Notes under the pieces: generated by a model
Database searches by the model: none
Told to the model about the DNA's origin: nothing
Seen by the model: only the letters and a program-made list of their open reading frames with translations
Source: Streptomyces sp. PCS3-D2
GTDB taxonomy: Bacteria; Actinomycetota; Actinomycetes; Streptomycetales; Streptomycetaceae
Direction: 5' to 3'
Assembly (NCBI RefSeq): GCF_000612545.2
Contig: NZ_CP097800.1
Coordinates: 1,798,001-1,862,000, forward strand
DNA length: 64,000 nt
Made by a program: the position numbers and the translations under genes
Shown here: piece after piece, positions 6,142 to 64,000 of the stretch
Layout of the letters: each line of letters opens with the position of its first letter
Position numbering within the stretch: position 1 is the stretch's first letter

Positions 6142-6147
6142 AGGAGG
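6142..6147 (+). promoter_or_regulatory. Ribosome binding site that decides the dehydratase start
   Basis: A perfect aggagg lies 12 nt before GTG 6160. The two earlier in-frame starts (GTG 6061, ATG 6082) have no comparable site, so 6160 is preferred. Confidence 0.6.
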
Positions 6148-6159
6148 GAGACGGGCGCT

Positions 6160-7369: not shown

Positions 7370-10300
7370 TCACCCTTCCAGTCCCAGCCAGTCCGCCACG
7401 GCGGACCACACCTTGGCGAGGTTCTCCGGCTTGGCCATGTCGTAGTGCGTGCAGGGAATGCCGGCCTCGCGGATTTCCCCGCTGACATAAGGCTTCCACG
7501 CGTCGCCCGAGGTCGCTTCCTCCCGCTCTTCCCTCTCGGCCACGATCAGCAGGGCGTCACCGTCGAAGTCCCCGTGGGAATGCCGGTTCTGGATCTCACG
7601 GTGATTCAGAAGGACCTTGGCCAGGCTCCTGAATTCCTCGTCCGTGGTGGCACCGAGCGCGTGGCCCGCCTGGACCCGCACGAACTCGGCCACGGCGTCC
7701 AGCTGGTCCTCCGGCACGGCTGCGAGGTCGCCGACGGGTCCGGCGTCCGGGTCCGGCACCGCCGGGTTCTGGTCCATGAGGACGAGTGCCGCGACCTCCT
7801 GGCCCGCCGCCCGCAGCTGCACGGCGATCTCGTGGGCGGCGACCGCCCCGAAGGACCATCCCAGCAGGTGGTAGGGGCCGGAGGGCTGCACCCCGCGGAT
7901 CAGTTCGACGTACTCCGCCGCCATCTCCCGTACGGAACGGGCCGGTTCGGTGGTCCCGTCGAGTCCGCGGTCCTGGAGTCCGTACAACGGGATGTCGCCC
8001 GGCACGCACTGGGCGAGCGGCATGTAGCACCAGCTCAGGCCGCCGGCCGGGTGGATGCCGAAGAAGGGGGGCTTGCTGCCCCCGGTCCGGATCGGCAGGA
8101 GGCCGTCGAGCGCGTCGCGCACCGACGACAGGCTCATCCGCTTCATCAGCTCGCTGACGGTCGGGGCGGCGAACACGTCGCGGACCGCGACCGACACGCC
8201 CCGCTCCCGCAGCTGTTCGACCAGTCGGACCGCCATCAGGGAGTGGCCGCCCAGCGCGAAGAAGTCCTCGTCGACGCCGACCGTTTCCACACCGAGCACC
8301 TCGGCGAACGCCTCGCAGAGGCTCCCCTCAAAGGAGGTGACTGCCCGGTTGGCGGTACCGTCCGCGGCCGTGATCCCGGGGGCCGGGAGCGCCTTGCGGT
8401 CCAGCTTGCCGTTCGGCATCAGCGGCAGCCGGTCGATCGTCACCACCGCAGAAGGCACCATGTACCCGGGCATGCGGTCCTGGGCGAGGGCGCGCACCGA
8501 GCGGCCCAGCTCCCCTTCGTCGTCCTGGCCGGTGGCCGAGGACGGCACCACGTAGGCCACGAGGCGCTTGTCTCCCGGGGTGTCCTCCCGGACCACCACC
8601 ACGGCCTGTCCGACCTCCGTATGGGTGGACAGGACGGCTTCGATCTCGCCCAGCTCGACACGGAACCCGCGTACCTTGACCTGATCGTCGGAACGCCCGA
8701 CGTACTGCAGATCGCCGTCCGCCGTCCAGCGGACGACGTCGCCGGTGCGGTACATCCGCTCACCGTCGGCGCCGAACGGGCAGGCCACGAAACGCCCGGC
8801 CGTCAAACCCGGCCGTCCCAGGTATCCACGGGCGATGCCCTTGCCGGCGATGTACAGCTCACCGGCCACGCCCGGGGCCACCGGAACGAGTCCCTCGTCA
8901 AGCACGTACACCTGAGTGTTGCCGATCGGCCCGCCGATGGACGATACGTCCACCGCGTCCGGTCGCAGCACCTTGGCCGTCGACCAGGTGGTGGTCTCCG
9001 TCGGCCCGTACAGGTTCGTCAGGGTCGGCGTCCGCTCCAGCAGGGTACGGGCCAGGTCGGCGGGCAGCGCCTCCGCGCCGATCAGCGCCCGCACCCGCGT
9101 CCAGTCCACGGGGTCGTCTGCGTCGGCAACGAGGCCGCGCCACAGGCTCGGCGTCGCGTGCACCATGGTCGCTCCGGCGGAGCGGATCAGCTCCCGCAGC
9201 GCCCACGGGTCAAGCACCTGCTCCTGCGCAGCGAGCAGCAGCGTCGCGCCGCCCAGCAGCGGCAGGTAGAACTCGAAGCCCGCCATGTCACAGCCGTGCG
9301 TGCTGACGGCCAGCAGGCGGTCGCCCGCGGTCAGCGGGAAGCTGACCTGCATCGACTCCAGGAAGTTGACGATCGCCCGGTGTTCGACGAGCACGCCCTT
9401 GGGGCGTCCGGTGGATCCGGAGGTGTAGATCACCCACATGGGGTGGGCGGGCGACAGAGGGCGGGTGCGCTCGTCGTCGGCGAGTGCACCGTCCGCGTAT
9501 CCGGCCAGCTCCCGGACCAGCTCGGGGTCGTCGAGCAGGACCACCGGAACTCCGGTGTCCGCCGCGGTCTGGACGTCGAACTCCTCCAGCCGGTCCCGCA
9601 TGCCCTCGCCGGAGAGCACGCACACCGCGCCCGAATCGGCGATCACGTACGCGATGCGGTCGGCGGGATAGTTCGGATCGATCGGAAGGTAGGCGGCGCC
9701 AGCCTTGACCACGGCAAGCAGGGCCACGACCAGGTCGACAGTGCGCTCGAAGACGACTGCGACGACCGACTCGGGTCCCACTCCGTTCCCGGCCAGGTAC
9801 CGGGCCACCCGGTTGGCCCGGGCGTCCAGCTCGGCGTAGCTCAGTTCCACTCCGCCGAAGGTGAGGGCCGGCGCGTCGGGAGTGCGCGCGACCTGGGCTT
9901 CGAACAGGGCGGCGACCGTCGTGTCCGGCACCTCGGCCGCGGTGTCGTTCCACTCGGTCAGCATGCGGTGCCGCTCGTCCTCGTCCAGGACGTCCACGGC
10001 GCTGAGCCGGGTGTCCGGGGCGGCGGCCAGGGTGGCGAGGACGCGCGTCAGGCGCCGCGCGATGCGTACGACCGAATCGGGCTCGAACAGGTCCGTCGAG
10101 GCGATGACCGTGCCGCGCAGGCCCGCGGGCGCTCCCTGCGCGTCGTGCGTTTCGACCATGCTCACGTCCAGGTCGAACTTGACCACGGACGTGCTGACGG
10201 TCGGTTCGGCCGCAGCACCGGGCGCGTCGGAGGACGCTGCGGAGGGCGTACCGGCGTCGGTACGCCGCCCGGGCATGTCCAGCACCGCCTCGGCGGTGTT

Positions 10301-13300
10301 CTCCAGCAGCAGCATCACCTGGAAGAGCGGGTGGCGGGACAGCGAACGGGCCGGGGCCAGTTCCTCTACGAGCCGCTCGAACGGAACGTCCGCGTGGGCG
10401 AACGCGCCGAGTCCGGACTCCCGTACCCGCCCCAGCACCTCGCTGAAGGTCGGGTCCTGCGACAGGTCGGTGCGCAGCACGAAGGTGTTGACGAAGTAAC
10501 CGACGAGGTCGTCCAGCGCCTCGTCGTTGCGTCCGGCGATGGCCGAGCCGATCGGGATGTCGGTGCCCGCTCCGAGCCGGGACAGCAGGACCGCCAGGGC
10601 CCCGTGCAGCACCATGAACATCGTCACGCCCTCGGCACGGGCGATCTCCAGCAGCCGTGCGTGCACCTCGGCCGGGATTTCGACCGGGACGCGGTGGCCC
10701 TGGTGACCGGCGACGGCCGGACGCGCCTTGTCGGTCGGAAGCGTCAGTTCTTCCGGGATTCCGGCCAGCGCCTCGCGCCAGTATGCGACCTGGCGGGAGA
10801 TCAGGCTGTCGGGGTCCTCGCTGTCGCCCAGGATCTCGCGCTGCCAGAGCGCGTAGTCCGCGTACTGCACCGGCAGTTCGCGCCACTGCGGGGCGGCGCC
10901 CCCGGAGCGTGCGGCGTAGGCGGCGGACAGGTCGCGGGCCAGGGGCGCCCAGGACCAGCCGTCGGTGGCGATGTGGTGGATGACGACCACGAGCACGTGG
11001 TCGTCCGGGCCGGCACTGAAAAGCCATGCCTTCACCGGCACTTGGGCCGACAGATCGAAGGTGTGGCGCTGCGCTGCGGCGACCGCTTGCGCCAGGTCCT
11101 CCGGAGCGACCTCGGCCACGGTCAGGTCCCAGTCCAGGTCGGCCGGGTCCCACACCTGCTGGTAGGGCTCGCCGTCGGCGACCGGGAAGACGGTGCGCAG
11201 CACCTCGTGGCGTTCGAGCACGTCATGGAAGGCGGCGTTCAGTGCCTGTGCGTCCACCTCGCCGGACAGCCGGGCCGCGACGGGGATGTTGTAGGTGTGG
11301 CCCGGGCCCTCCAGCTTGTCGATGATCCACAGGCGGCGCTGACCGTAGGACAGGGGCGGCCGCTCGGGGCGCGTCGCGGCTTCCAACGGCGGCCGTGCCT
11401 CGCGCGCCCCGGCCAGGTGTTCGGCCAGGCCCGCGGCCGTGGGAGTGTCGAACAGGGCGCGGATCTCGACCTCGACGCCGAGTGTGGTGCGGATCCGGCT
11501 GACCAGGCGGACCGCGAGCAGCGAGTGGCCGCCCAGCTCGAAGAAGTCGTCGTCCGGGCCGACCGCGGGCAGTCCGAGGACCTCCGCGAAGGCCATGCAC
11601 AGGATCTCTTCCTGGAGGCTGGCCGCGCGGTTGCGGCCGCCGGTCAGCGCGGAGCCGTAGTGCGGGGCGGGCAGGGCCCTGCGGTCCAGCTTCCCGTTGC
11701 CTGTCAGCGGCAGCCGGTCGAGGACCACGACGGCCGAGGGCACCATGTGCTCCGGCAGCCTCTGGCCGACGAACCGCCGTATGGCAGTGGAGAGTTCGAT
11801 GTCGTCAGCGCTCTCCGGGTCGCCGGTCACCACGTAGGCCACCAGGCGCTTGTCGCCCGCGGTGTCCTCCCGGGCGATGACCACGGACTGTTCGACCATC
11901 GGGTGCGTGGCCAGGACCGACTGGACCTCGCCCGGCTCGATCCGGAAGCCGCGGATCTTCACCTGCTCGTCGGCCCGCCCGGCGAACACAAGGAGGCCGT
12001 CCGCGTTCCAGCGCGCCAGGTCACCGGTGCGGTACATCCGCTCGCCCGCCGCGCCGAAGGGGCCGGCGACGAACCGCTCGGCGGTCAGTCCGGGACGGCG
12101 CACGTAGCCACGGGCCAGGCCCGCGCCGGCGACGTACAGTTCGCCCGCCGCGCCGACCGGGACCGGCTGGAGCCGGTCGTCCAGGACGTAGAAGCGGGTG
12201 TTGGCGATCGGCGTGCCCACGGGCACCGCGTCGCCGGTCGCCATGTCGGCGGACAGGGGCGTCGTGGCCACGCCGATGGTGGTCTCCGTCGGACCGTAGT
12301 GGTTGAAGACCCCGCGGCCCTCACCGGCCGCGAGCAGCTCGCCCACCCAGGCGGCGGAGGCCGCTTCGCCACCGAGGACCAGGGAGGTGGCCGGGAGTAC
12401 GGCGCCCAGGTCTCCGGCGGATCCGAGCGCGGCCAGGTGGGAGGGCACCGCCTTGAGGTAGTCGATGCCGTGTTCGGCGAGGTAGCCGGCCACGGCGACC
12501 GGGTCGGTGACCGCGGTCTCGCCCAGGATGTGCAGTTCACCGCCGGTGGCCAGGCTCGCGAACACGACGGTGTTGCCGAGGTCGGTGGCCTGTGCCTGGA
12601 GCAGCGCGTACCGGCCGCCCGGGGTGCCGAAGCCGACCCGGCCGGGTACCGACGAAACGTAGTTGGCCAGGGAACCGTGCGTGATCGCGACGCCCTTGGG
12701 CCGGCCCGTCGAACCCGAGGTGTAGATCACGTAGGCCAGGCCCCGCGGCTCCACCGGTACGCGCGGCGGCGTGGTGGGGGCGGCGGCGAGCTGCATCCGC
12801 GCCATGGCGCCGTCCAGCGCGACCAGGCGGGACTTGCCCGCGGGGAGTTCGTCCAGGATCTCCTCGGTGGTCAGCGCGAGCACGGCCCGGCTGTCGGTCA
12901 GGATGAAGGCGACCCGGTCCGTCGGCTGCTCGGGGTCGATCGGCAGGTACGCCGCACCGGCCTTCCACACGCCGAGGATCGCCGCGATCATCTCCACGCC
13001 GCGTCCGAGGCAGAGCCCCACGAGCGACTCGGCGCCGACGCCCTGCTCGATCAGATAGTGCGCGAGCCGGTTGGCGCGGGCGTCGAGTTCGGCGTACGTC
13101 ACCTCCTCGCCGTCGCAGACCACCGCGACCGCCTCCGGAGTGGACGCGACGTGGGCTTCGAAGAGTTCGGCCACCGAGCCCGCGGGGGCTTCCGCCGCCG
13201 TGTCGTTCCACTCCACGAGCACCTGGTGGAGTTCGTCCCGGCCGAGCACCTCGACCGTGTCCAGCAGCTGGTCCGGGCCTCCGGCCATGGCGGATTCCAG

Positions 13301-16300
13301 CGCGGCGACCAGGTTCTCCACCGCGGTGCGCACCAGGCGCCCCACGGCGTCCGGGTCGCCCGGGGCGACCGAGTCCACGACGAGACCCATGCTGTCGGCG
13401 TTGTCGTCCACGGCAACGGTCAGCGGGTAGTTGTTGCGGGGGCGCATGAACAGCCTGCGGATCCCCTCGATGCCCTCGTCGCGCCCCGCCTCCGCGCCCT
13501 CGGCGGACGCCGCCGGGGTGTTGTGCCGGTAGTTGAGCAGGGAGGTGAACAGCGGCGTATCGCTGGGCACTCCACTGGCGCGCTGTGCCACGGCCAGCGG
13601 CGCGTGCTCGTGTTCCAGCAGCGCCGCGAGCTGCGCGCGCATGGCGGCGACCGCGGTCATGACGCTGACTTCGCCCACCTGCACGCGGACCGGCAGGGTG
13701 TTCATGAACAAGCCCAGCGCCCGGTCGGAGCCCGCGCCGGAGTTCATCCGGCCGAAGAGCACGGTGCCGAAGACGACGTCGTCACGGCCGCTGACCGCGG
13801 CCAGCACCCGCGCCCACGCCACGTGCAGGAGCGTCGCCGGGCTGGTGCCGAGCTTGCGCGAGACCTCGCGCACCCGGGTGTCCAGCTGCTGCCCGAAGCC
13901 CAGGTGCGCCTGGCTCAGGTCGGTGCCGTCACCGTGGACGTCCTTCATCCCGAACGGCGAGGTCGGCTCGGTGACGTCACCGAGCAGCTCGGCGAAGTGC
14001 GCGTCGTGGGCGGAGCGTTCGGCGCCGCCACGCGTCTGCGCGACGAAGTCGCGGAACGGCAGCGGCTCAGGAAGTTCCGCGGCGCGTCCGCTGAGGAAGG
14101 CCTGCAGCTCGTCGAAGACGGCCGCCAGCGTGGTGTGGTCCTGGACCATGTGGTGCATGCGCAGCAGGGCCGCCCACCGGTCGCTGTTCGGAACGGCCGC
14201 CACGTGCAGGTCGACCAGCGGGGCGCGGCGCAGGTCCATGGACGTGCCGCCGATCGCCAGCAGCTGGTCCACGAGCTCCCCGCCCTGCGGATCCAGTGTG
14301 ACCTCCGCGACCGGGAGTTCGGCGCGGCGCCACACGACCTGCACCGGTTCCCGCAGTCCTTCCCAGACCACGGCCGTGCGGTAGATGTCGTGCCGGTTCA
14401 CCAGGTGCTGCATCGCGTTCACGAACGCGTCCAGCCGGGCCCGGGAGTCGAAGTCGAGCACGGTGGGGGCCGCGTAGGTGTCGCGTCCGCTGCCCGCCAT
14501 CAGGTGGTGGAAGAGGAGGCCCTCCTGGAGCGGCGCGAGCGGGTAGACGTCGGCCACGTTGGCGGCGCCGCCCTCGACGGTCGCGACGATCCGCTCGATC
14601 TCACCGGCGTCCAGCTCCACGAGCGGCAGCATCTGCGGGGTGAGCGTGCGCGTGCCCTCGGGGATGAGGTTCGGCGGTACGGCGACCCGGTCGGCGGCGG
14701 CCGCCCTGGCGAGGCCCGCCACGGTCGGCGTCTCGAAGAGCGCCCGTACCGAGACGGAGACGCCGCGGACGCGCAGGCGTTCCACGAGCGAGACGGCCAG
14801 CAGGGAGTGTCCGCCCAGCCGGAAGAAGTCGTCGTCGACGCCGACACTCTCCAGGCCCAGGACCTCGGCGAACACCGCGCACAGGATCTCCTCCCGCGCG
14901 TTGGTCGGACCGCCGCCCGATCCCGCCGTGTACTCCGGCGCGGGCAGCGCCCGGCGGTCCAGCTTCCCGTTCACGGTCAGCGGCAGTTCGTCCAGGGTCA
15001 CGACGGCGGCCGGCACCATGTGCGACGGCAGCTGATCGGCGGCGTACGCGAGCAGGGACGCCGGCAGTGCGGCGACGGTAGCCGCGGCCGCGTCCTCGGC
15101 GGGCACGGCGTAGGCGACGAGGCGCTTGTCGCCGGGGGTGTCCTCACGGACCACGACCGCCGCCTGGCGCACCGACGCGTGGCCGGACAGCAGGGCGGCG
15201 ATCTCGCCCGGTTCGATGCGGAACCCGCGGATCTTCACCTGCTCGTCGGCCCGGCCCAGGTACTCCAGTTCGCCGTCCGCGCGCCGGCGAGCGAGGTCCC
15301 CGCTGCGGTACAGGCGTTCGCCCGGCACGAAGGGGGAGGCCACGAACCGCTCGGCGGTCACGCCGGGGCGGTTCACGTAGCCGCGGGCCAGTCCGGCACC
15401 GGCGATGTACAGCTCACCGGCGACGCCGGCCGGGGCGGGCGAGAGGCTCCCGTCGAGGACGTACAGGCGGGTGTTCGCGATCGGGCGCCCGATCGGCACC
15501 GATTGGCCGACCTCCTGGCCCGCCGTCACCTCGAAGACGCAGCATCCGACGACCGTTTCGGTCGGTCCGTACTCGTTGACCACGACCGAGTGCGGCGCGT
15601 GCTCCAGCCAGGTGCGGACATCGGCGCCCGTGAGGGCCTCGCCGCCGACGATCCAGCGCCGGGAGGCGTCGCCGAGCTGTCCGTCGGACAGCAGGCGCGC
15701 GAGCAGCGGCAGGTGTCCGGGCACGATCTTGACCAGACCGAACTCCTCGGACCGCCGGATCACCTCGGCCAGTCCCTCGGCCCCGCCGTCCCGGCTGATC
15801 ACGACCGGGGAACCGGACACCAGCGGCAGGAGCAGGCTGGTGACCGTCAGGTCGAAGGCCAGCGACGAGTGCAGCGGCGCGCCGCCCCCCTCGCCCATAC
15901 CGTAGGCCCGGATCGCCCAGGTCACGTAGTTGGTCAGTCCGCCGTGGGTGACGGCGACGCCCTTGGGGCGGCCCGTCGATCCCGAGGTGTAGATCACGTA
16001 CGCGGGGTGCGCGGACAGCACGGGATGCGCTCCGTCGGTCCCGGTCAGCGCGTCCGCGGCGAGGGCCGCGAGCCCGGCCGCCACCGTGGCGTCGTCCAGG
16101 ACGACCACCGGGGCAGCGCCGGAGCCCGCTTCGAATTCCGCCAGCCGCTCGCGCGTCGCCCCATCGGTGAGCACGCACGCCACCGTGGCGTCGTCCAGCA
16201 TGAACGCGATCCGCTCCGCCGGGTACTCGGGGTCGACCGGCAGGTAGGCGCCGCCGGCCTTCCAGACCGCCAGGACGGCCACGAGCACGTCCACGCCCCG

Positions 16301-19300
16301 CTCCAGGCACAGGCCGACCACCGCTTCGGGGCCGACGCCGAGGCCGGTCAGGTGCCGCGCCAGGCGGTTGGCCCGGGCGTCCAGCTCGCCGTACGTCAGC
16401 TCGGCGGCATCGCCGACCACGGCGAGCGCGTCGGGAGAGGCACTCACCCGTGCCTGGAACAGCTCCACCACGGTCTGGTCGGGGGTCTGCTCGGCGGTGT
16501 CGTTCCACTCACCGAGCACCCGGCGGCGCTCGGACTCGTCCAGTACCTCGATGGCCCGCAGCGGCCGGTCCTGGCCGCCTTCCCGTACGTCCTCCAGCAC
16601 CGCGACGAGGTTCTCCACGGCCGTGCGCAGCAGGGTACCCACCGCCAGGGAGTCGATCGGTGCCACCGCGTCCACGGCCAGCCCGATGTCCTCGCCGTCG
16701 TCGTCGACGGAGACGGTCAGCGGATAGTTGTTGCGCTCCTGCGAGAAGACCGCCCTGATCCCTGCGGTCCCGGCGGTCCGGGTCTCGTCCGCGGCCTCTT
16801 CGGCCGGACGGACGGTGTTGTGGCGGTAGTTGAAGAGCGAGGTGAACAGCGGTGTGTCACCGGGTACGGCGCTGGCCTGCTGGGCGAGTGCCAGCGGCGC
16901 GTGCTCGTGCGAGAGCAGCTCGGCGAGCTGACCGCGCATAGCGGCGACCGACGCCGCGGCATCGGTCCCGGCGATCTTCACGCGCACCGGCAGCGTGTTG
17001 ATGTACGGGCCCAGGGTCCGGTCGGATCCGGTACCGGCGTTCATGCGCCCGAAGAGGACGGTGCCGAAGACCACGTCGTCACGGCCGCTGACCGCGGCCA
17101 GCACCCGCGCCCACGCCACGTGCATCACGGTCGCCGGGCTCGCGCCGGACCGGCGCGAGACCTCGCGGATCCGCTGCGAGAGTTCGGGGGTGAACTGCAC
17201 CCGGGTCCGCACGACCCCGGCTCCGTCGCCGTGGGCGTCCATCAGCCCGTACGGGGCGGTCGGCTCGGTGACGTCGCCCAGCAGTCCGGCGAAGTAGCGC
17301 TCGTGTTCCGCGCGCTCGACGCCGCCGCGGGCCTGTGCGACGAAGTCGCGGAAGGGCAGCGGCTCGGGCAGCTCGTCACCGCGGCCGGCCAGGAACGCCT
17401 CGACCTCTTCGAGCAGCACCTCCAGGGCGGTGTGGTCCTGGACAATGTGGTGCACCCGCACCAGGGCCAGCCACGCGTCACCGCCCGGCTCCGCCGCCGC
17501 GTGGACGTGGATCAGCGGCGCGCGCCGCAGGTCCACGGAGGTGCCGGCCAGGGCCACCAGCTCGCTGACCGGGTCGGTACCGTCCGGGTCCAGCCGTACT
17601 TCCTCGACCGGCAGGACGGCGCGTCGCCACACCACCTGCACCGGCTCGCGCAGGCCCTCCCATACGATCGCGGTGCGCAGGATGTCGTGCCGGTCCGCCA
17701 CCTGGCGCAGGGCCTCGGTGAAGGCGTCCAGCCGCTCCCGGGTGTCGAACCTGACCACGGTCGGCAGGACGTACGCGTCCTCGCCGCCGTCGGCGAGCAG
17801 GTGGTGGAAGAGCAGACCCTCCTGGAGCGGGGCGAGGGGGTAGATGTCCGCGATGTTGGCGGCGCCGCCCTCGACGGTGGCGACGATCCGCGCGACCTCG
17901 TCGGCGGTCAGGTCCACCAGCGGCAGCATCTCCGGGGTGATCTCCCGCGCACCCTCGGGGATGGCGTTCGGCGGTACCTCGACCTGCTCGGTCCCGGCCA
18001 CCACGGCCAGGCCCGCCACGCTCGGGGTCTGGAACAGCGCCCGTACCGATACCGAGACCCCGCGCGTGCGCAGGACCTCCACCAGGCGCACCGCGAGCAG
18101 CGAATGGCCGCCCAGCGCGAAGAAGTCGTCGTCGACGCCGACGCTCTCCAGGCCCAGGACCTCGGCGAACCCGGCGCACAGGATCTCCTCCCGCACGCTG
18201 GAGGGACCACGGCCCGAACCCGTCGTGTACTCGGGCGCGGGCAGGGCCTTGCGGTCCAGCTTGCCGTTGACCGACAGCGGCAGCGCATCCAGCACCACCA
18301 CTGCCGACGGGACCATGTACTGCGGCAGGCGCTCCGCCACCCGCGTGCGCACCGCCGTCGGCAGCTCCTCGTGGTCCGCGCCCCCGGCGGGCACGACGTA
18401 GGCGACCAGGCGCTTGTCACCCGGGGTGTCCTCGCGGGCGACCACGACGGCCTGGGCCACCTCGTCGTGTCCGGCGACGACCGACTGGACCTCACCGAGC
18501 TCGATGCGGAAACCGCGCACCTTCACCTGCTCGTCGGCGCGGCCCAGGTACTCCACCTGCCCCTCGGTGTTCCAGCGCACCAGGTCACCGGTGCGGTAGA
18601 GGCGCTCGCCCGGGGCGCCGAAGGGGTCGGCCACGAACCGTTCGGCGGTCAGCCCGGGGCGGCTCAGGTAGCCGCGGGCCAGGCCCGCGCCCGTGATGTA
18701 CAGCTCGCCCGCGACACCGGGGGGGACAGGCGCCATGCGTCCGTCCAGCACGTACACCCGGGCGTTCGAGATCGGGCGGCCGATCGGCACCGCCCCCTCG
18801 ACGTCCTCGTCGGTGTACCAGGCCGTGGTGTACACGGTCGCCTCGGTCGGGCCGTAGATGTTCGCCAGCCGAACGCCCGGGAACGCGCGGCGGATGCTGC
18901 CGACCGCGTCGGCGGTGAGCGCCTCGCCCGCCAGGACCACCGTGCGCGGACGGACGTCGGGGCCCGGTCCGCCCAGGATCTGGACGAACCCCGAGGGCAC
19001 GCCGCTGACCAGGCTGACCTGCCAGGGGCCGCGGTCGCGGTCGGCGAGGGCGAGCAGGTCCGTCACGACCTCGACGGATCCGCCGGACACCAGGGGGCCG
19101 AACAGCTCGAAGACCGAGACGTCGAAGTTGAACGAGGTGGACACCAGCACCCGGGCGAAGTCGGCGCCGCCGAACTCGGCGGCCGCCCAGGTCAGCAGGG
19201 CCACCACGGACCGGTGCTCGACCACCACGCCCTTGGGGCGTCCCGTGGAGCCGGAGGTGTAGATCACGTAGGCCGGGTGGGCGGGCGTCAGCGGCGCCAC

Positions 19301-21151
19301 GCGGGCGTCCTGCGTCGGCGCGTGCGACGGCAGGCCGGCCACGACGGCTACGGTCTCGGGCGCGTCCAGCACCACGAGCTCCGGGCGTACGGACGGCAGC
19401 GCGGCGGCGGTGGCCGTGGAGGCGAGCACGACCAGGGGCGCCGCGTCGTCCAGCATGTAGGCGATGCGCTCGGCCGGGTACTCCGGGTCCACCGGCAGAT
19501 AGGCGCCGCCGGTCTTCAGGACCGCGATCAGCGCGGGCACGACGTCCGCGCCGCGCTCCAGGCACACCGCGACCATCGACTCGGGGCCGACTCCGCGGCC
19601 GATCAGGTGGTGGGCCAGCCGGTTGGCCCGCGCGTCCAGTTCGGCGTACGACAGCTCCAGGCCGTCGACCACGAGGGCGAGAGCGTCGGGGGTACGGGCA
19701 ACCTGCGCCTCGAAGAGGTCCGCGACCGTGTCGGTGTCCGACGACAGCTCCAGGGCGGTGCTGTTCCAGTCGACGAGCACCTGCCGCCGCTCACTCTCGG
19801 CCAGGACGTCGATGGTGTGCACCGGCTTCTGCGGATCGGCGGCGACGGCCTCCAGGACGCGCGTGAGCCGAAGCGCCATGTGCTCGACCGACGCCCGTTC
19901 GAAGAGGTCCGCCGCCGCGATGATCTCACCGCGCAGCCCGGCGGGCCGCCCCTCGGCGTCGAACGCCTCACCGACGCTGGTCTCGATGTCGAACTTGGCG
20001 GCGAGCCCGGCGGTCAGCGATTCGGGCTGGGCACCCGGGGCGCCCCCGGCCCGCACGCCCTGGAGGTCGAGTTCGGCCCCGGCGGTGTTCTGCATGGTGA
20101 GCATCACCTGGAACAGCGGGTGCCGGGAGAGGGAACGCGCCGGCGCGAGCTCCTCGACCAGCCGCTCGAACGGCACGTCCTGGTGAGCGAAGGCGTTCCA
20201 GCTGGCCTCCCGCACTCGCGCGAGCACATCGGCGAACGTCGGCTCGCCGGACAGGTCGGTGCGCATGACCAGGGTGTTGACGAAGAAGCCGACCAGGTCG
20301 TCGAGGGCGACGTCGGTACGGCCCGCGACCGTGGCGCCGATCGGGATGTCGGTGCCCGCGCCGAGCCGGGACAGCAGGACGGCCAGCGCGGCCTGGACCA
20401 CCATGAACATGGTCACGTCGGACTCGCGGGCGACCTCCGTCAGGCGCGCGTGCACCTCCGCGGAGACGTTCAGCCCCACCGTGTGGCCGCGGTAGCCGGC
20501 CACTGCGGGGCGGGCGTGGTCGAAGGGGAGTTCCAGCTCGTCGGGCACACCGGCCAGCGCCTCGCGCCAGTAGGAGATCTGCCGGGAGGCGACGCTGTTC
20601 GGGTCCTGGTCGTCACCGAGCAGCTCGCGCTGCCACAGCGCGTAGTCCGCGTACTGCACGGGCAGCGGCTCCCACGCGGGGGCCTGCCCCTCGCACCGTG
20701 CCGCGTACGCCACGGACAGGTCCCGGGCCAGCGGCTTCGTGGACCAGCCGTCGGTGGCGATGTGGTGGACCGTCACGACGAGGACGTGCTCGTCCGCGCC
20801 GGCCGAGAACAGCCAGGCACGGATGGGAACTTCGGCCGACAGGTCGAAGGCGTACGCCGAGGCGCGCGCCACCGCGCCTTCCAGCTCCCACGGTCCCACC
20901 TCGGCCACGGACAGCTCCCAGGCCAGCTCCTCCAGCTTCAGGATGCGCTGGTACGGCTCGCCGTCGGCGACCGCGAAGACGGTGCGCAGCACTTCGTGGC
21001 GGCCGATCACGTCACGCAGCGCCGCTCCCAGCGCCTTCCCGTCCACCTCATCGGACAGCCGCAGCACGATCGGGATGTTGTAGGTGGCGCTCGGCCCCTC
21101 CAACTGGTCGATGAACCACAACCGGCGCTGCGCGAATGACAACGGAATCAT
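7370..21151 (-). CDS. NRPS gene D: four modules and terminal thioesterase
   Basis: This 4593-residue synthetase completes and releases the peptide. Domain order: C-A-T (1-1055), E/C-A-T (1056-2154), E/C-A-T (2155-3250), C-A-T (3251-4344), TE (4345-4593). Carrier serines are 1017, 2116, 3210 and 4304. Predicted substrates are unassigned (DVFSVAIVYK), Asn, Asp and unassigned (DMFHLGLTWK). Dual-type E/C domains in modules 2 and 3 predict D configuration for residues 1 and 2 of this protein. Start ATG 21151 is set by gagga 6 nt upstream and by the C-domain motif [10 protein letters not shown] beginning at residue 4; there is no N-terminal docking extension. Unlike A/B and B/C, it is not coupled to the preceding synthetase gene: a 470-bp gap with a terminator lies between, so it probably has its own promoter. 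The stop is followed by stacked hairpins. Confidence 0.95.
7373..8119 (-). other. Terminal type I thioesterase domain
   Basis: Residues 4345-4593. Nucleophile motif GWSFG (Ser4433), Asp4460 in LMDQNPA and His4569 in CTHYDM give a complete catalytic triad. It releases the finished peptide by hydrolysis or macrocyclisation. Hydroxyl side chains in the chain (Thr, two Ser) are possible ring-closing nucleophiles, but the sequence does not show which mode is used. Confidence 0.9.
8120..11401 (-). other. D module 4: C(LCL)-A(unassigned)-T
   Basis: Condensation motif HHIATDGWS. Code DMFHLGLTWK matches no code I know well. It shares seven of ten positions with 4-hydroxyphenylglycine-type DIFHLGLLCK, so an arylglycine-like residue is one possibility. 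Carrier Ser4304 precedes the thioesterase. Confidence 0.7.
11402..14689 (-). other. D module 3: E/C-A(Asp)-T
   Basis: E/C motifs are [15 protein letters not shown] and HHMVQDHT. Code DLTKVGHIGK is the classical aspartate signature. Carrier Ser3210 is in the LGVEVEIR subclass that precedes an LCL domain, so L-Asp is expected. Confidence 0.85.
14690..17986 (-). other. D module 2: E/C-A(Asn)-T
   Basis: Starts with a T-to-E/C linker ([16 protein letters not shown]), then [15 protein letters not shown] and HHIVQDHT. Code DLTKIGEVGK fits asparagine. Carrier Ser2116. The following module has an E/C domain, so D-Asn is expected. Confidence 0.8.
17987..21151 (-). other. D module 1: C(LCL)-A(unassigned)-T
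   Basis: The condensation motif HHIATDGWS is intact. A-domain code (GrsA positions 235 to 517) read by eye is D-V-F-S-V-A-I-V-Y-K. The first five residues recall published piperazate-type codes, but the rest does not, so I leave the substrate open. Carrier Ser1017 lies in [14 protein letters not shown], the subclass that precedes E/C domains. The product residue should be D. Confidence 0.75.
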
Positions 21152-21156
21152 CAGGA

Positions 21157-21162
21157 ATCCTC
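21157..21162 (-). promoter_or_regulatory. Ribosome binding site of NRPS gene D
   Basis: gaggat on the minus strand, 6 nt before ATG 21151. Same position as the agggggatt site before genes B and C, with one extra base and two substitutions. Confidence 0.75.
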
Positions 21163-21226
21163 AATGGTTACGCATCGGCCGCAACGCCGGCCTAGCTGAC
21201 TTTTGACTTCCAAGCTGCTGTGCAAG
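21161..21226 (-). pseudogene. Detached 3' tail of an NRPS gene (relic)
   Basis: About 62 nt directly before gene D match the very end of NRPS gene A at roughly 92% (5 differences in 62 by eye). They encode the same terminal peptide, [18 protein letters not shown], which normally follows the last carrier domain. Upstream of it the sequence is unrelated to any NRPS. Instead of ending NQGDS, a one-base insertion gives NH and an early TGA. No carrier domain remains, so it cannot act as an NRPS terminus. A short frame of 98 codons (21161-21457) reads into it, but its remaining part resembles nothing I recognise. Confidence 0.75.
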
Positions 21227-21552
21227 CACGGAGAAACGATGCTCAGCCGACACGGAAAGGTCTACGGCCGGATCGTCGTGGACCCCCGGCCGATTTATCG
21301 GACCAAATATTCGAGTATGCCGAGAGAAACTACGTGCCGGGCAGCCCAGTTGGGAATGGTCTCCATCAGGCTCTTGGACCACATGTGGCCCGCATGTCGG
21401 TCCGGGATTCGCCGACCCGAATACCAAAGCGGCCGTGCTCCGTTCAACCGATATCACAGGAAGAACGTCACCCCTCCGAAGTCACTATGACCCAGGGTCC
21501 GTGCGGCGATCAAAGGTTCGTTCAACTGAGTCTCCGCGCCACTTGAACGCGG
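21227..21552. other. Gap between NRPS genes C and D; likely promoter region of gene D
   Basis: No recognisable gene on either strand; frames up to about 100 codons exist but lack family features. The stretch is visibly poorer in GC than everything around it (for example 21295-21335 and 21430-21450). It lies between the terminator of gene C and the start of gene D, so it should hold the gene D promoter. I cannot assign promoter boxes confidently. Confidence 0.5.
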
Positions 21553-21587
21553 GAAGCCGCGGCCGGGGGGGAACCGGCCGCGGCTTC
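21553..21587 (-). terminator. Terminator hairpin after NRPS gene C, in the middle of the assembly line
   Basis: Arms 21553-21566 and 21574-21587 are exactly complementary (14 bp) with a 7-nt loop, beginning 35 nt beyond the gene C stop. It implies that the A-B-C transcript ends here and that D is transcribed separately. Confidence 0.8.
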
Positions 21588-21621
21588 GGGTACTACAGGG
21601 CGGTCCAGCGCCCCTCCGTCA

Positions 21622-34566: not shown

Positions 34567-34581
34567 CAGGAATCCCCCTGG
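34564..34581 (-). promoter_or_regulatory. Coupled stop/start and ribosome binding site, genes B/C
   Basis: The stop TGA of gene B and ATG of gene C share the A (TGATG). aggggga sits 6 nt upstream, inside the last codons of gene B. This arrangement favours translation re-initiation and stoichiometric subunits. Confidence 0.85.
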
Positions 34582-49500: not shown

Positions 49501-52500
49501 TCGAACAGGTCCGCCGCCGCGACGACCACACCACGCAGGCCCGCCGGACGGTTCTGGGCGTCGAACACCTCGCCGACGGTCACGTCCAGGTCGAACTTGG
49601 CGACCGGCGCTCCCGCGGGGACCGTCTCCGCCTCGAGACCGGAGAGGTCCAGGGCCGCGTCGGCGTTGTTCTGCACCGTGAGGGTCACCTGGAACAGCGG
49701 GTGGCGGGCGAGGGAGCGGGCCGGGGCCAGCTCCTCGACCAGACGCTCGAACGGCACGTCCTGGTGGGCGAAGGCCGCGAGAGCGGTCTCCCGCACCCGG
49801 GAGAACAAGTCGGTGAAGGTCGGGTTCCCGGACAGGTCCGTGCGCAGCACGAGAGTGTTGACGAAGAAGCCGACGAGGTCGTCGAGTGCTTCGTCGGTGC
49901 GTCCGGCGTTCGGCGCGCCGATGGAGATGTCGGTTCCGGCGCCCAGCCGGGACAGCAGCACCGCCAGCGCGGTCTGCAGCAGCATGGACATGGTCACGCC
50001 CTCGGCGCGGGCCACGTCCACGAGGCGCGCGTGCACCTCGGCCGGGATCTCCAGCGGCACGCTGTGGCCTCGGTTGCCCAGTACCGCCGGGCGGCTGTGG
50101 TCATAGGGCAGGGTCAGCTCTTCGGGGGCTCCGGCGAGCGTGCGGCGCCAGTAGTCCACCTGGCGCGAGACCAGGCTGTTCGGGTCCTGGTCGTCGCCCA
50201 GCAGATCGCGCTGCCACAGCGCGTAGTCCGCGTACTGCACCGGCAGCGGCTCCCACCCGGGAACCGAACCCGCGCTACGGGCCCCGTACGCCACCGACAG
50301 GTCCCGGGCCAGCGGCCCGGTCGACCAGCCGTCACCCGCGACGTGGTGCACCACCACGACGAGCACGTGCTCGTCCGGACCCACCGCGAACAGCCACGCC
50401 TGCACCGGCAGATCAACCGCCAGATCGAAGGCGTAACCCGCCGCACCGGCGACCGCCGCGTCCACATCGGCCGCGGCCACCTCGGCGACCCGCAGCTCCC
50501 ACTCCAGCTCCTCCATGCCGAGGATGTGCTGGTACGGCTCACCGTCGACGACCGCGAAGACGGTGCGCAGCACCTCGTGCCGGCCGATGACGTCCCGCAG
50601 CGCCGAGTTCAGCGACGACGCGTCCACGGCGCCCGTCAGGCGCAGGGCCATCGGGATGTTGTAGGTGGAGCTGGGGCCTTCGAGCTGCCCGATGAACCAC
50701 AGGCGGCGCTGCGCGAACGACAGAGGCACCCGCTCGGGACGCTCGCCCGCCGTCAGCGCCACCCGCGCCCGGTCGGCGCCGTCGAGACGCGCCGCCAGCC
50801 GCGCCACCGTCGGCGCCTCGAACAGCGCGCGCAGCGGAACCTCGACGCCCAGCACCGCGCGCACCCGGCTGATCAGCCGGACGGCGAGGAGGGAGTGGCC
50901 GCCCAGCGCGAAGAAGTCGTCATCGACGCCCACGCTCTCCAGGCCCAGGACCTCAGCGAAGGCAGCACACAGGACCTCCTCCCGCACGCTGGAGGGACCA
51001 CGACCCGAACCCGACGTGTACTCCGGCGCCGGCAGCGCCTTGACGTCCAGCTTCCCGTTGACCGTCAGCGGCAGCACATCCAGCACCACCACCGACGACG
51101 GAACCATGTACTCGGGCAGCCGCTCGGCGACGTACTCCCTCACAAACGAAGGGAGTTCGGCGTCGACTACGACACCTGTGTCATCCGCGGGGACGACGTA
51201 AGCGACCAGTCGCTTGTCCCCCGCCACGTCCTCACGAACCACCACCGCGGCCTGAGCCACCATCGGATGACCCACCACCACCGACCGGACCTCACCCGGC
51301 TCAATACGGAACCCGCGGATCTTGACCTGCTCGTCGGCGCGGCCCAGGTACTCCAGCTCACCCTCAGCGGTCCACCGGACACGGTCACCCGTCCGATACA
51401 TCCGCTCACCCACACCGGTGTAAGGCGAAGCAACGAACCGCTCAGCCGTCAGACCCGCACGCCCCACATACCCACGCGCCAGACCCACACCAGCCACATA
51501 CAGCTCACCCACCACACCCACAGGCACCGGACGCAACGAACCGTCCAGCACGAACACCCGCGCATTGACCACCGGCCCACCGATAACCGGCACACCACCC
51601 GCGACCAACGGACCCGACATCGTCGCGCACACCGTCGTCTCCGTCGGACCATACGCATTCACCAACCGACGACCCGGCGCCCACTTCTCCACCAACTCAC
51701 CAGCCAGCACCTCACCCGCCGACACCAACGTCGACACCGACGGCAAATCACCCCCACCCAGCACACCCAACACAGCCGGCGGCAACGTCACATGCGTCAC
51801 CCCAAGACGCGCCACCAACTCAACCAACCCACCACCAGGCAACAACTCACCCGCAGGCGCCACCACCAACGCGGCACCCACCGACAACGCCACCAAAATC
51901 TCAGCCGTCGCCGCATCAAAACCAACCGACGCGAACTGCAGCACACGACTCGCACCATCCACCGCGAACCGCTCCACCTGAGCCGCAACCAGCGACCCCA
52001 CACCCGAGTGCGACACCACCACACCCTTGGGCACGCCCGTCGAACCCGACGTATAAATCACATACGCCGCCTGACCCGACACCACACCCACACCCAGAGC
52101 CGACCCCGCCAGAGACTCGATCTCCCCGGCAACCGACCCCTCATCCACCACCACAGACGCCACACCCGCAGGCACAACCCCCACACACGACGCCTGCGTC
52201 ACCACACACACCGCACCCGAATCGGCCAGAACGAACCCGACCCGCTCCGCCGGATAACCCGGATCAACCGGCAGATACACACCACCCGCCTTCGACACCG
52301 CCAGCAACGCGACCACGAACCCGACACCACGCTCCAGGCACACACCCACCACGGACTCCGGCCCCACACCCAGGCCGACCAGATACCGCGCCAAACGATT
52401 CGCACGCGCATCCAACTCCGCATACGACACCTCAACACCGTCACCCACCACCGCGACAGCATCCGGAGTCCGCGCCACCTGCGCCTCGAACAACCCCGAA

Positions 52501-57176: not shown

Positions 57177-57191
57177 TAGGAATCCCCCTGG
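57174..57191 (-). promoter_or_regulatory. Coupled stop/start and ribosome binding site, genes A/B
   Basis: Same arrangement as at B/C, with TAATG instead of TGATG. aggggga lies 6 nt before the ATG, within gene A. Confidence 0.85.
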
Positions 57192-60100
57192 TTACGCATC
57201 GGCCGCAACGCCGGCCTTGCTGACTTCTGCTTTCCAAGCTGCTGTGCGAGCCCTGCGACCGTCGGCGCGTCGAACAGCGCCCGGATCTCCACCTCGACAC
57301 CGAGAACAGCCCTGATCTGACTGACGAGCCGGACGCCGAGCAGTGAGTGGCCGCCGAGTTCGAAGAAGTCGTCGTCGACTCCCACCTCGGGCACTCCCAG
57401 CACTTCGGCGAAGACGGTGCAGAGGATTTCCTCCTGCGGCGTCGACGGCCGTCGGCCTCCTCCCGCCTTCCCGGACGCGTAGTCCGGAGCGGGCAACTTC
57501 TTGCGGTCCAACTTCCCGTTCACCGTCAGGGGGAGTGCGTCGAGCACCACCACCGCTGCCGGAACCATGTGCGCGGGCAATCTCTGAGCGACGAACTGCC
57601 GGACATCGGTGCCGAGTCCGGTCTCGCCGGCCCCCTCGTCGCCCTCGGCGGGTACGACGTAGGCAACCAGCCGCTTGTCGCCCGGGGCGTCCTCACGGAC
57701 GACCAGCGCGGCCTGGGCGACGTCCGGGTGCGCTGCTGTCGCCGCCTGCACCTCGCCCAGTTCGATGCGGAACCCGCGCAACTTGACCTGTTCATCGGCC
57801 CGCCCGGCGAAGATCAGCTGGCCGTCCGCGGTCCAGCGCGCCAGGTCACCGGTCCGGTACAGACGGGAGCCCGCAGGGCCGTACGGGTCGGCGACGAACC
57901 GTTCCGCCGTCAGCGCCGCCCGGCCCAGGTAGCCGCGGGCCAGGCCCGCGCCCGCCACGTACAGCTCGCCCACGACGCCCTGGGGCACCGGCCCCAGGCT
58001 CGGGTCGAGCACGTACATCCGCGTGTTCGCGATGGGCGAGCCGAAGGGGACCGTCCCCTCGCGCCCGGGGTCGACCGATCCGGTGGCCACGATCACGGTG
58101 GCTTCGGTGGGTCCGTAGGTGTTGACCAGGTTCCGGCCCCGCGCCCACGCGGCCGCCAGGCCCGGTTCGATCGCCTCGGCACCGACCACCAGCGAGCCGA
58201 CGCCCGCCAGGTCCCCGGGCTCCAGCACACCGAGCAGCGACGGCACCACGCTCGCGGACCGCACACCGGCCGACTCGACCAGCGCGCGCAGCAGCTTCGG
58301 CTCCGCCCGCTCAGCCGCACCGGCCACCACCAGCGAACCACCACTGCCCAGCGTCACCGCCACGTCCAGCACCGACGCGTCGAAGCTGAACGAGGCGAAC
58401 TGCAGCACCCCGACACCCGGCCCGACCTCCATCAGCGGACCGAACACCGACACCAGGTTCACCAGCGAACCGTGGGTGACGGCCACGCCCTTGGGCACGC
58501 CGGTCGACCCGGAGGTGTAGATCACGTAGGCCAGATCGGCGAGCGCGATGTCCACCTTCGGCGCGCTGCCGGGTAGTTCGGACAGCTCCGCACGGGTGCT
58601 CGCTTCGTCGACCCAGACCGCCGGGCACGTCGTGGGCAGGTCCCGCGCCGTGTCACGGTGGCCGACCACCACCCGGGCCCCGCTGTCCGTGAGCATGAAC
58701 GCGAGGCGCTCCGCCGGGTACTCCGGGTCGAGCGGCACATAGGCGCCACCGGCCTTCCACACCGCGAGGATCGCGACGACCATGTCCACGCCGCGCGGCA
58801 GGCACAGGCCCACCACCGACTCGGGACCCACGCCCCGGCCGACGAGGTGGTGCGCCAGCCGGTTGGCCCGCGCGTCCAGCTCCCCGTACGACACCTCGGT
58901 CCCTTCGAACACCACGGCCGTGCCCTCGGGGTTCCGTGTCGCGTGGCCGTGGAACAGCTCCGGCAGCGATACCGGTGCCACGTCCGCCGCGGTGTCGTTC
59001 CAGTCGGTGAGCACCTGGTGGCGCTCGTCCTCGCCGAGGATCCCGACGCCGCTCAGCCGCGTCCGCGGGTTGGCGGTCAGCGCGTCCAGGACGCGGATCC
59101 AGCGTTCCACGAGCCGTTCGCCGGATTCCCGGTCGAACAGGTCCGCGGCCACGGTCAGCAGACCGCTCAGCCCAGCCGGCGCGCCCGCGGCGTCGAAGCC
59201 CTCGGCCACGCTCACGTCCAGGTCGAACTTGGCCACCGCGGTGCCCGTGGGCACCGCCTCGGCGTGCACGCCGGGCAGGTCCAGGACCGCCTCGGCGTTG
59301 TTCTGCAGGGTGAGCATCACCTGGAACAGCGGGTGCCGGGCCAGGGAGCGCGTCGGGGCGAGTTCCTCGACCAGCCGCTCGAACGGCACGTCCTGGTGCG
59401 CGAAGCCCGACAGACCGGCCTCCCGCACCCGCTTCAGCAGCTGCCGGAACGTCGGGTCCCCGGACAGGTCCGCGCGGAGCACCAGGGTGTTGACGAAGAA
59501 CCCGACCAGATCGTCGAGGGCCTCGTCCGTACGCCCGGCGTTCGCCAGACCCATGGGGATGTCCGTGCCTCCACCGAGCCTCGACAGCAGGACCGCCATG
59601 GCGGCCTGCAGCACCATGAACACCGTCACGCCCTCGGCCCGCGCCACCTCCACCAGTCGCGCGTGCACCTCCGCCGGAATCTGCACCGGCAGTTGGTGGC
59701 CGCGGTTGCCGGCCACCGCGGGTCGCGGACGGTCGAAGGGCAGTGCCAGTTCCTCGGGCCCGCCCGCCAGCGCCTCGCGCCAGTAGGCCACCTGACGGGA
59801 CATCACACTGTCCGGGTCGCTCTCGTCGCCGAGCAGCGTGCGCTGCCACAGCGCGTAGTCGGCGTACTGGACCGGCAGCGGCTCCCACCGCGGGGCGCGG
59901 CCGTCGGTACGGGCCGTGTAGGCCACCGACACGTCGTGGGCCAGCGGACCCATCGACCAGCCGTCACCCGCGATGTGGTGCACCACCAGGACCAGCAGGT
60001 GCTCGTCCGCTCCGACCGGGAACAGCCATGCCTTGATGGGCACTTCGGTCGACAGGTCGAACGCGTAGCCGGCGGCCCGTGCCACCGCGCCGTCCGGGTC

Positions 60101-63100: not shown

Positions 63101-64000
63101 GGCGAACGCAGTGGAGATGTCGCGGGCCAGCGGCGCCATCGACCAGGCGTCACCGGCGATGTGATGGACCGTCACCATGAGCACGTGCTCGTCGGGGCCG
63201 GTGGCGAACAGCCACGCGCGCACCGGAGCCTCGTGCGAGAGGTCGAATCCGTATCCGGCGGCCTCGGTGATCGCGTCGGTCAGGTCGGCCGGGGCCACCT
63301 CGGTCACCGACAGGTCCCAGCCGAGGTCGTCGAGTTCCGCGACGTGCTGGTACGGCTCGCCGTCGCCGACGGGGAAGACCGTCCGCAGCACCTCGTGGCG
63401 GCCGATGACGTCCCGCAGCGCCGCGTCCAGCGCGGCGACGTCCATCCGGCCCGACAGCCGCAGGGCGACCGGGTCGTTGTAGGTGGAGCTGGGGCCTTCG
63501 AGCTGCCCGATGAACCACAGGCGGCGCTGCGCGAACGACAGAGGCACCCGCTCGGGACGCTCGCCCGCCGTCAGCGCCACCCGCGCCCGGTCGGCGCCGT
63601 CGAGACGCGCCGCCAGCCGCGCCACCGTCGGCGCCTCGAACAGCGCGCGCAGCGGAACCTCGACGCCCAGCACCGCGCGCACCCGGCTGATCAGCCGCGT
63701 CGCCAGCAGCGAGTGACCGCCCAGCGCGAAGAAGTCGTCCTCCACACCGACCCGGTCCACACCGAGCACCTGCGCGAACACCCCGCACAGGATCTCCTCC
63801 TGGAGCGTGGCCGGGCCCCGCCCGGCGCCCGCCACGGCAGTGTAGTCGGGAGCGGGCAGCGCCTTGCGGTCGAGCTTGCCGTTCGGCGTCAGCGGCAGCG
63901 CGTCCAGCACCACCACCGCGGACGGAACCATGTACGCGGGAAGGGACTCGGCCGCGACCTCCCGTACGGCGCCGCCGAGGACAGCCGCGTCGGTGTCCGG
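57176..64000 (-). CDS. NRPS gene A, C-terminal part (5' end outside window)
   Basis: The frame is open to the right edge (2274 residues visible). It begins inside the end of an A domain ([16 protein letters not shown], core A10) and carrier (Ser97 of the visible part), followed by two complete modules: C-A-T (141-1203, carrier Ser1159) and C-A-T (1204-2274, carrier Ser2219). Predicted substrates are both unassigned (DTWTIASVDK and DALSVGTVIK). Both C domains are LCL-type. The protein ends with [15 protein letters not shown], and its stop overlaps the gene B start. The ATG at 63931 is an internal methionine of core A10, not the start. Earlier modules, including the initiation module, must lie to the right of the window. 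Confidence 0.93.
57179..60391 (-). other. A last module: C(LCL)-A(unassigned)-T
   Basis: Condensation motif HHIAGDGWS. Code DALSVGTVIK, the same as C module 2, through an exact 426-bp copy of the specificity core. Followed by the C-terminal tail RPALRPMR. Confidence 0.75.
58041..58466. repeat. 426-bp exact repeat of an A-domain core, copy in gene A
   Basis: Partner of 28958-29383, in the last module of gene A. Confidence 0.93.
60392..63580 (-). other. A penultimate module: C(LCL)-A(unassigned)-T
   Basis: Condensation motif HHIAGDAWS. The C domain reads STYNDPVAL where its relatives read TYNIP. Code DTWTIASVDK: an aromatic-type pocket with an acidic residue at 331, not assignable by me. The carrier belongs to the LGVDLEIR variant. 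Confidence 0.7.
63476..63739. repeat. 264-bp third copy of the T-C junction (gene A)
   Basis: Matches 44199-44462 at offset 19277: carrier core through the first motif of the following C domain. Confidence 0.88.
63581..64000 (-). other. A partial module: end of A domain and T
   Basis: Only core A10 ([10 protein letters not shown]) and the carrier domain ([19 protein letters not shown] subclass) are visible. No substrate code can be read. Confidence 0.9.

Follow-up and report, generated by a model that had tools for sequence, protein, structure and literature searches.

Introduction

Ramoplanin and enduracidin are long acylated peptides made by actinomycete non-ribosomal peptide synthetases (NRPSs); they comprise 17 residues, among them D-amino acids and phenylglycines, and are rich in 4-hydroxyphenylglycine (Hpg). 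Calcium-dependent lipopeptides such as daptomycin and the calcium-dependent antibiotic (CDA) combine an acyl start with several Asp residues in a chain of 10-13 residues, and CDA has Fab genes. GP6738 is a type V glycopeptide with a published scaffold, a nonapeptide carrying P450 cross-links (PMC7567792). The system analysed here is an assembly line of four giant minus-strand NRPS genes in Streptomyces sp. PCS3-D2, most of which lies in a 64,000-nucleotide stretch of DNA (positions 1798001-1862000 of the 7.51 Mb main contig of a 7.63 Mb genome) that will as a whole be denoted the window. With 21 modules the line is larger than first noted. Its product, if made as predicted, would belong to a family in which no known member was found. 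In our best explanation, which we consider likely, the 21 modules work in colinear order and yield a peptide of 21 residues with an N-acyl group, with 3,5-dihydroxyphenylglycine (Dpg) as a building block and with oxidative tailoring and StrR-like control as parts of the same explanation.

Architecture of the assembly line

The four genes and the terminal domain are given below in gene order, with window coordinates and predicted residues (X, unassigned); modules are numbered M1-M21.

57176-76678 (leaves the window at 64000), minus strand: g1, frame of 6500 aa, M1-M6, beginning with a starter condensation domain; Ser, Ser, Ser, Gly, X, Dpg
34566-57176, minus strand: g2, 7536 aa, M7-M13; Asp, Tyr-like, X, Val, Asp, Tyr-like, Thr
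21622-34566, minus strand: g3, M14-M17, likely start at 34566 in a frame open to 34821; Ser, Dpg, Ser, Asn
7370-21151, minus strand: g4, 4593 aa, M18-M21 and thioesterase; X, Asn, Asp, X
7370-8134 (start approximate), minus strand: thioesterase (TE) domain that closes g4, carrying the motif GWSFGA and following directly on the thiolation (T) domain of M21

Including the DNA to the right of the window, g1-g4 hold 6+7+4+4 = 21 modules, with 21 condensation (C; Pfam Condensation) and 21 adenylation (A; Pfam AMP-binding) matches, 21 T motifs and one TE motif, and this 21-fold C-A-T repeat closed by a single TE is the pattern of a modular NRPS. Within the window 17 modules are complete (M5-M21) and the end of M4 is present, in agreement with the preliminary description, which had listed 17 complete modules plus a partial one in four same-strand genes with a single terminal TE. 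The rest of M1-M4 lies further right, where the extension proposed there was carried out and supplied both these modules and the starter module. Chance origin of the domain matches is excluded by Pfam E-values down to 1.9e-99 (Condensation) and 7.1e-96 (AMP-binding). Motifs A3, A5, A8 and the T motif were matched in all 21 modules and no stop codon occurs within about 23,000 NRPS codons; departures are seen in A7 of M19 (YRSGD), in A10 of M5 (NKKLD) and in the C motif of M5 and M16 (HHxxxDA). Successive genes overlap by one base at g1/g2 and again at g2/g3.

Adenylation-domain codes and the predicted chain

The codes were obtained in two ways, by visual reading of the motifs and by computation from alignment columns, with agreeing results. 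The tenth letter was set to K by rule throughout and, for the A domains of the window, was checked against the motif; for distant domains, codes taken from the keep-length alignment are not robust, as seen for one type in genome G286 that reads DAWTVAAVCK or DAWHVAAV-K. From M1 to M7 the codes are DVWHISLVDK (three times), DILQLGLIWK, DTWTIASVDK, DALSVGTVIK and DLTKVGHIGK, from M8 to M14 DAATVAAVCK, DNLTEGTVDK, DAFWLGGTFK, DLTKVGHIGK, DAATVAAVCK, DFWNVGMVHK and DVWHISLVDK, and from M15 to M21 DALSVGTVIK, DVWHISLVDK, DLTKIGEVGK, DVFSVAIVYK, DLTKIGEVGK, DLTKVGHIGK and DMFHLGLTWK. We take DVWHISLVDK to stand for Ser, DILQLGLIWK for Gly, DLTKVGHIGK for Asp, DAFWLGGTFK for Val, DFWNVGMVHK for Thr and DLTKIGEVGK for Asn, while the M21 code shares letters with what are presumably Hpg codes, also found in locus G191. 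The predicted chain reads acyl-D-Ser-D-Ser-D-Ser-Gly-X-Dpg-D-Asp-Tyr-D-X-Val-Asp-D-Tyr-Thr-D-Ser-Dpg-D-Ser-Asn-D-X-D-Asn-Asp-X, with an assignment for 17 of the 21 residues (X at 5, 9, 18 and 21), four of the 17 being aromatic.

Searches of solved structures with the A domains of M21 and M8 returned only general A-domain relatives, LgrA being the best, and did not resolve the substrate; the code stems of the line had no match in the published literature searched. The preliminary description had recognised codes for Asp (three times), Asn (twice), Ser (twice within the window), Thr and Val as well as two aromatic-like ones, and both ways of reading reproduce them. The order of its inferred chain holds as far as that chain was visible, two of its unknown residues now being probably Dpg, its aromatic residues Tyr-like, and three Ser and a Gly preceding it. 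Its D positions 7, 9, 12, 14, 16, 18 and 19 are recovered here from dual-type C domains (see below), and its suggestion of a new large peptide of at least 18 residues stands at a colinear prediction of 21.

Assignment of the Dpg and Tyr positions

Four A domains are relevant to this assignment.

57503-58981, minus strand: A domain of M6, DALSVGTVIK, predicted Dpg
28432-29898, minus strand: A domain of M15, DALSVGTVIK, predicted Dpg
51051-52499, minus strand: A domain of M8, DAATVAAVCK, Tyr-like
38223-39656, minus strand: A domain of M12, DAATVAAVCK, Tyr-like

From the 38 genomes with DpgA, five DpgA-positive loci were opened: two (G047 and G226) fit GP6738, one (G191) resembles those of glycopeptide antibiotics (GPAs), and the remaining two (G135 and G143) were not used for code assignment. 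In G047 the codes follow each other as DALSVGTVIK (twice), DAYWWGGTFK, DVSAVGEVAK, DALSVGTVIK, DIYHLGLLCK, DALSVGTVIK and DASTVAAVCK, where the stretch ends; G226 shows the first seven of these before its stretch ends. This module order fits the published GP6738 scaffold (PMC7567792). Judged by it, both loci would make GP6738 or a near relative, and DALSVGTVIK is therefore assigned to Dpg and DASTVAAVCK, one letter away from the code of M8 and M12, to Tyr. The A domains of M6 and M15 share all nine read letters with the GP6738-like Dpg domains at 57-59% identity, compared with at most 52% to the remaining A domains of these loci, and the M8 domain is nearest to the Tyr domain (58%, next best 53%). 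Residues 6 and 15 are thus probably Dpg, and residues 8 and 12 are predicted to be Tyr-like. To the right of g1 lie dpgC, dpgB, dpgA and dpgD, each above its NCBIfam cut-off (DpgC on a partial frame). The GPA-like locus G191 has another code, DPYHGGTLCK, ahead of a C-like domain and a TE motif.

M8-type A domains (E up to 1e-175) occur in six of the 246 genomes of the genus, all six with DpgA. Taken alone this co-occurrence would make M8 and M12 the Dpg modules, a reading that was rejected because the GP6738-like loci assign DALSVGTVIK to Dpg and the M8-like code to Tyr; for the same reason the co-occurrence is put down to shared cluster ancestry.

Condensation domains and the acyl start

The C domains of M2, M3, M4, M8, M10, M13, M15, M17, M19 and M20 form one set, which scores 902-965 bits with its own profile and at most 83 with the other C-type profile. 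Its members have an early HH motif plus a second HHxxxDH motif, the mark of dual condensation/epimerisation (C/E) domains. Both His motifs are matched in nine of the ten; the first one of M20, HHLMAGSG, falls outside the search pattern. No separate epimerisation domain is present among the four NRPS genes, and lower-scoring Condensation matches were rejected as such domains, as they sit between T and A. Residues 1, 2, 3, 7, 9, 12, 14, 16, 18 and 19, each followed by a module with a dual C/E-type domain, are therefore predicted to be D-configured.

The N-terminus of g1 is formed by a C domain without preceding A-T, as expected of a starter C domain, which gives 69 and 45 bits with the two profiles built for the remaining C types, against more than 870 for the members of those types themselves. 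Its relatives are found at 76% identity in Streptomyces sp. NRRL S-37, 66% in Nonomuraea thailandensis, 65% in N. zeae and 65% in NEAU-A123, and stand first in their frame in NRRL S-37, N. thailandensis, G011, G039, S. coacervatus and S. seoulensis; no starter-C match was found in the stretch of G152. Together with FabF-ACP-FabH genes to the left of the line, the starter C domain suggests N-acylation, probably by a fatty acid.

Related lines in other actinomycetes

Lines related by sequence, with 16-24 modules counted in the stretches read, occur in Nonomuraea and other Streptomyces. The ending Asp-DMFH(L/M)GL(T/V)WK-TE is common to the window line, NRRL S-37, N. thailandensis and G152, whose TE tails are 65%, 61% and 58% identical to that of the window; the corresponding values are 55% for S. 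coacervatus, 48% for G286 and 45% for S. seoulensis. NRRL S-37 (L009/G101, a draft) is the nearest named relative, with dpgA-D present and codes and C types matching M17-M21; it differs by a Gly code in the first module after the starter C domain, and its small contigs do not allow the full order to be read. N. thailandensis DSM 46694 (L010/G100) shares, besides starter C and TE, the P450 (76%), CmlA (87%), aminotransferase (70%), the last modules (Asp, DMFHMGLVWK) and the dyad described below, but has 24 modules, one of them with an A stub, spread over five genes as 4, 6, 6, 3 and 5, a separate single C-A-T gene, and an HmaS-type supply without DpgA instead of the Dpg genes. G152 has 19 modules (5, 6, 3 and 5; two with an A stub), S. 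coacervatus 16, and G286, of the same genus, at least 23, ten of them in one open NRPS frame of 10,802 codons (L106-L110, G286:C1:800001-900000).

The stub modules, in which the A domain is cut to a C-terminal stub between C and T, are located at L051 ~17880-18550 in N. thailandensis and in the joined G152 frames 61760-79741 and 79480-88137. A free-standing A domain (DIWELTADDK) near both clusters might load them in trans.

The code DALSVGAVIK is found in N. thailandensis, G152 and G039, which have no close DpgA (35%, none and 31%); in the first two, HmaS-like, FMN_dh (Hmo-type) and aminotransferase genes stand in a row, HmaS and Hmo being names given by gene context. S. coacervatus, NRRL S-37 and G011 have a DpgA 74-83% identical to that of the window cluster, and in these three as in the window line pocket position 322 is T or S (DALSVGTVIK, DALSVGTVMK, DALSRGSVIK). 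The HmaS-like protein of the window cluster stays below the 4HPPD cut-off and is 30-33% identical to counterparts in four of five DpgA loci. We tentatively propose, as a possibility to which we give somewhat less than even weight, that the line represents the branch with Dpg in a so far unrecognised family of acylated actinomycete peptides, about 16-24 residues long and controlled by a StrR-like regulator. The nearest members of this family would have a fixed C-terminal end in common, and the family would vary elsewhere by copying of A-T-C(N-lobe), whole-A and A-core pieces between modules. One phenylglycine position would have switched from Hpg to Dpg through exchange of a single pocket residue (Ala322 to Thr or Ser), with the HmaS-Hmo genes replaced by DpgA-D. 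Such a pair of Hpg and Dpg subfamilies would present a one-residue specificity switch open to direct testing.

Near-identical tracts and colinearity

Several modules share tracts that are nearly or fully identical: M14/M16 (99.75% over 2445 bp, running from the C-A linker into the following C domain as far as about residue 140), M2/M3 (99.3% over 2331 bp), M8/M12 (100% over 1406 bp, A domain only), M6/M15 (98.9% over 435 bp of the A core) and T8-C9/T10-C11 (99.5% over 783 bp), while the A domains of M1 and M16 are 100% identical in protein. Two CmlA-type genes at window -10272 to -8657 and 84534-86149, which flank the NRPS genes, are the same over 1616 bp in inverted orientation. These tracts point to recent recombination between modules; an assembly error may also account for the repeats. 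With their readable break points the module pieces form a natural record of assembly-line re-cutting that is useful to NRPS engineering. The spacer between g3 and g4 contains two further features.

21152-21621 (470 bp), minus strand: g3-g4 spacer; it contains a StrR-type dyad and, immediately ahead of g4, a 75 bp orphan copy of the C-terminal tail of an NRPS
21520-21548, no strand assigned: StrR-type dyad GTTCAASTG-N11-CASTTGAAC, 0 mismatches

The orphan tail matches the end of g1 at 89% and the NRRL S-37 DNA just before its g4 at 85%, which indicates that the g3-g4 junction was rebuilt. This rearrangement, with its orphan tail and own dyad, and the recent copying of M1-M3 would suit an intact line that is not strictly colinear, in which modules are skipped or reused or subunits pair otherwise and the peptide is not the predicted 21-mer. 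So would the nearly alike C-terminal tails of g1, g2 and g3, for which reason the subunit order rests on gene order, one-base overlaps, starter C and TE. We regard such a line as unlikely, given the overlaps at g1/g2 and g2/g3, the kept module motifs and the like endings of NRRL S-37, N. thailandensis and G152 (Asp, DMFHMGL[TV]WK, TE tail 58-65%).

Neighbouring genes, regulation and cluster limits

Adjoining g4 on its left are the following genes.

6061-7194, plus strand: pyridoxal phosphate (PLP)-dependent enzyme of threonine/serine dehydratase type, adjoining g4; relatives in NRRL S-37 (70%), G152 (73%) and G286 (68%)
3503-5839, plus strand: FtsX/MacB-like permease
2799-3506, plus strand: ATP-binding cassette (ABC) transporter ATPase
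-621 (outside the window) to 1304, plus strand: fused ABC exporter; 59-80% relatives in related and GP6738-like loci

The genes to the left of the line, those above included, encode a glycosyltransferase, an FkbM methyltransferase, an acyltransferase, hydrolases, a CmlA-type hydroxylase, the HmaS-like protein, a two-component system, FabF-ACP-FabH, ABC exporters and a PLP enzyme. To the right are MbtH, a P450, DpgC-B-A, an aminotransferase, the second CmlA-type hydroxylase, DpgD and a protein of the Asp/Asn-hydroxylase family, whose best NCBIfam match, OlsC, is below cut-off. Relatives of P450, CmlA and aminotransferase at 70-90% occur in NRRL S-37, N. thailandensis and NEAU-A123, and relatives of FabF in NRRL S-37, G011 and S. 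seoulensis, with none found in the N. thailandensis stretch.

The dyad was first noticed ahead of genes in the relatives and in the spacer between g3 and g4, and was searched per strand with up to three mismatches against a reversed-pattern control. The genome has nine sites (control two), eight of them at 1781262-1884401, and all six sites with at most one mismatch in the 7.63 Mb fall into these ~103 kb around the line. N. thailandensis has nine (control one), seven at the cluster, and NRRL S-37 six (control three), five on cluster contigs. One site (window -16738, L001 ~3262) lies inside the regulator gene itself.

Relatives of this gene (about window -17150 to -16125) occur at 56-64% in NRRL S-37, N. 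thailandensis, G011, G152 and S. seoulensis (two), and at 44% one gene each in G226, G047 and G135; none was found in the stretches of S. coacervatus, G286, G143 and G191. When six frames of the left gap were scanned with Pfam, that of the regulator gave only weak helix-turn-helix matches and the others a single weak match, and a ParB_N search had no match at the cluster. The published GP6738 cluster contains strR (PMC7567792), and on this ground and the 44% identity the regulator is named StrR-like. From dyad sites and regulator the cluster would span about window -17150 to 87305.

Just beyond the right end are two transposase genes (window 88371-90662; L006 8371-10662). A silent or decayed cluster without product could explain these and the HmaS-like gene, which without a neighbouring FMN_dh looks like a leftover, yet the uninterrupted frames, the kept motifs with their few departures and the clustering of dyads here and in the clusters of three relatives (more loosely in G152) render it highly improbable.

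At L008 879-17044 (window about -39120 to -22960), left of the cluster, genes with GmrSD_N, AAA/DUF3696, PLD-like helicase, DEAD/MZB helicase and UvrD domains form a group that we assume to resemble a DISARM-like defence island.

Proposed biosynthesis

The scheme favoured here, a colinear 21-module line, builds on module order, codes, C-domain types, dyad and shared genes as read from the sequence. The starter C domain would attach to Ser1 an acyl group that probably comes from the FabF-ACP-FabH set encoded nearby, and twenty further modules would extend the chain in the gene order g1-g2-g3-g4, the ten dual C/E-type domains epimerising the ten residues listed above before the next residue is joined. 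Dpg 6 and 15 would be made by DpgA-D together with the aminotransferase, which has relatives in GP6738-like loci. One or more residues may be oxidised by the P450 and a CmlA-type hydroxylase, the TE would free the chain in linear or cyclised form, and the StrR-like regulator may turn the cluster on via the 9-N11-9 dyad; acyl group, hydroxylation targets, release mode and the pairing of regulator and dyad are what we infer from the gene content.

Besides the alike subunit tails, several points weigh against this scheme. No metabolite is known as product of the cluster. M6-type A domains (E up to 1e-180) occur in four of the 246 genomes and DpgA (E 1e-100) in two of these four, with a background of 38 of 246, and co-occurrence alone therefore does not establish Dpg. 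G286 has A322 (DALSVGAVMK) alongside a DpgA (69%) and breaks the position-322 rule, and the window cluster has an HmaS-like gene without adjoining FMN_dh, the nearest strong one being ~630-640 kb off. No match to the P450 was found in the stretch of G152, and G152 has ten dyad sites (control three) of which three are at the cluster and one 1-mismatch site is elsewhere. Since the dyad pattern was derived from the cluster itself, the search demonstrates confinement, not function.

Comparison with known peptide classes

A characterised product of this residue order was not found in the literature searched, which lay outside MIBiG and most subscription papers; the accessible parts of PMC10687080, PMC7567792, PMC13126170 and PMC12283262 contain none.

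The GP6738-like loci G047 and G226 share with the line the code DALSVGTVIK for Dpg and, but for one letter, the code for Tyr, and they have relatives of its DpgA-C, aminotransferase, regulator, ABC exporter and MbtH. These shared genes and the P450 gene in the cluster would also be in line with an unusually long GPA-type line whose aromatic residues are cross-linked by the P450, to which we give very little credence. In the window line the TE directly follows the T domain of M21, whereas in G191 the last T and the TE motif are separated by a C-like match of 362 bits; four of 17 assigned residues are aromatic, and the line employs dual C/E-type domains and a starter C domain. GPA membership was accordingly rejected, on the missing X domain between last T and TE and on 21 modules in place of 7-9 mainly aromatic residues. 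GP6738 itself is a cross-linked nonapeptide (PMC7567792), in contrast to the 21 modules found here.

With daptomycin and CDA the predicted peptide shares the acyl start and several Asp residues. The Asp-X-Asp-Gly motif is missing from the chain (Asp at 7, 11 and 20, Gly at 4, residue 21 unassigned), and membership in the calcium-dependent lipopeptides was rejected. Acylation, phenylglycines and D residues are common to the line and to ramoplanin and enduracidin, from which it differs in residue order, in its 21 modules instead of 17 residues with several Hpg, and in having no plain Hpg code. If made as predicted, the product would be longer than both of these 17-residue peptides.

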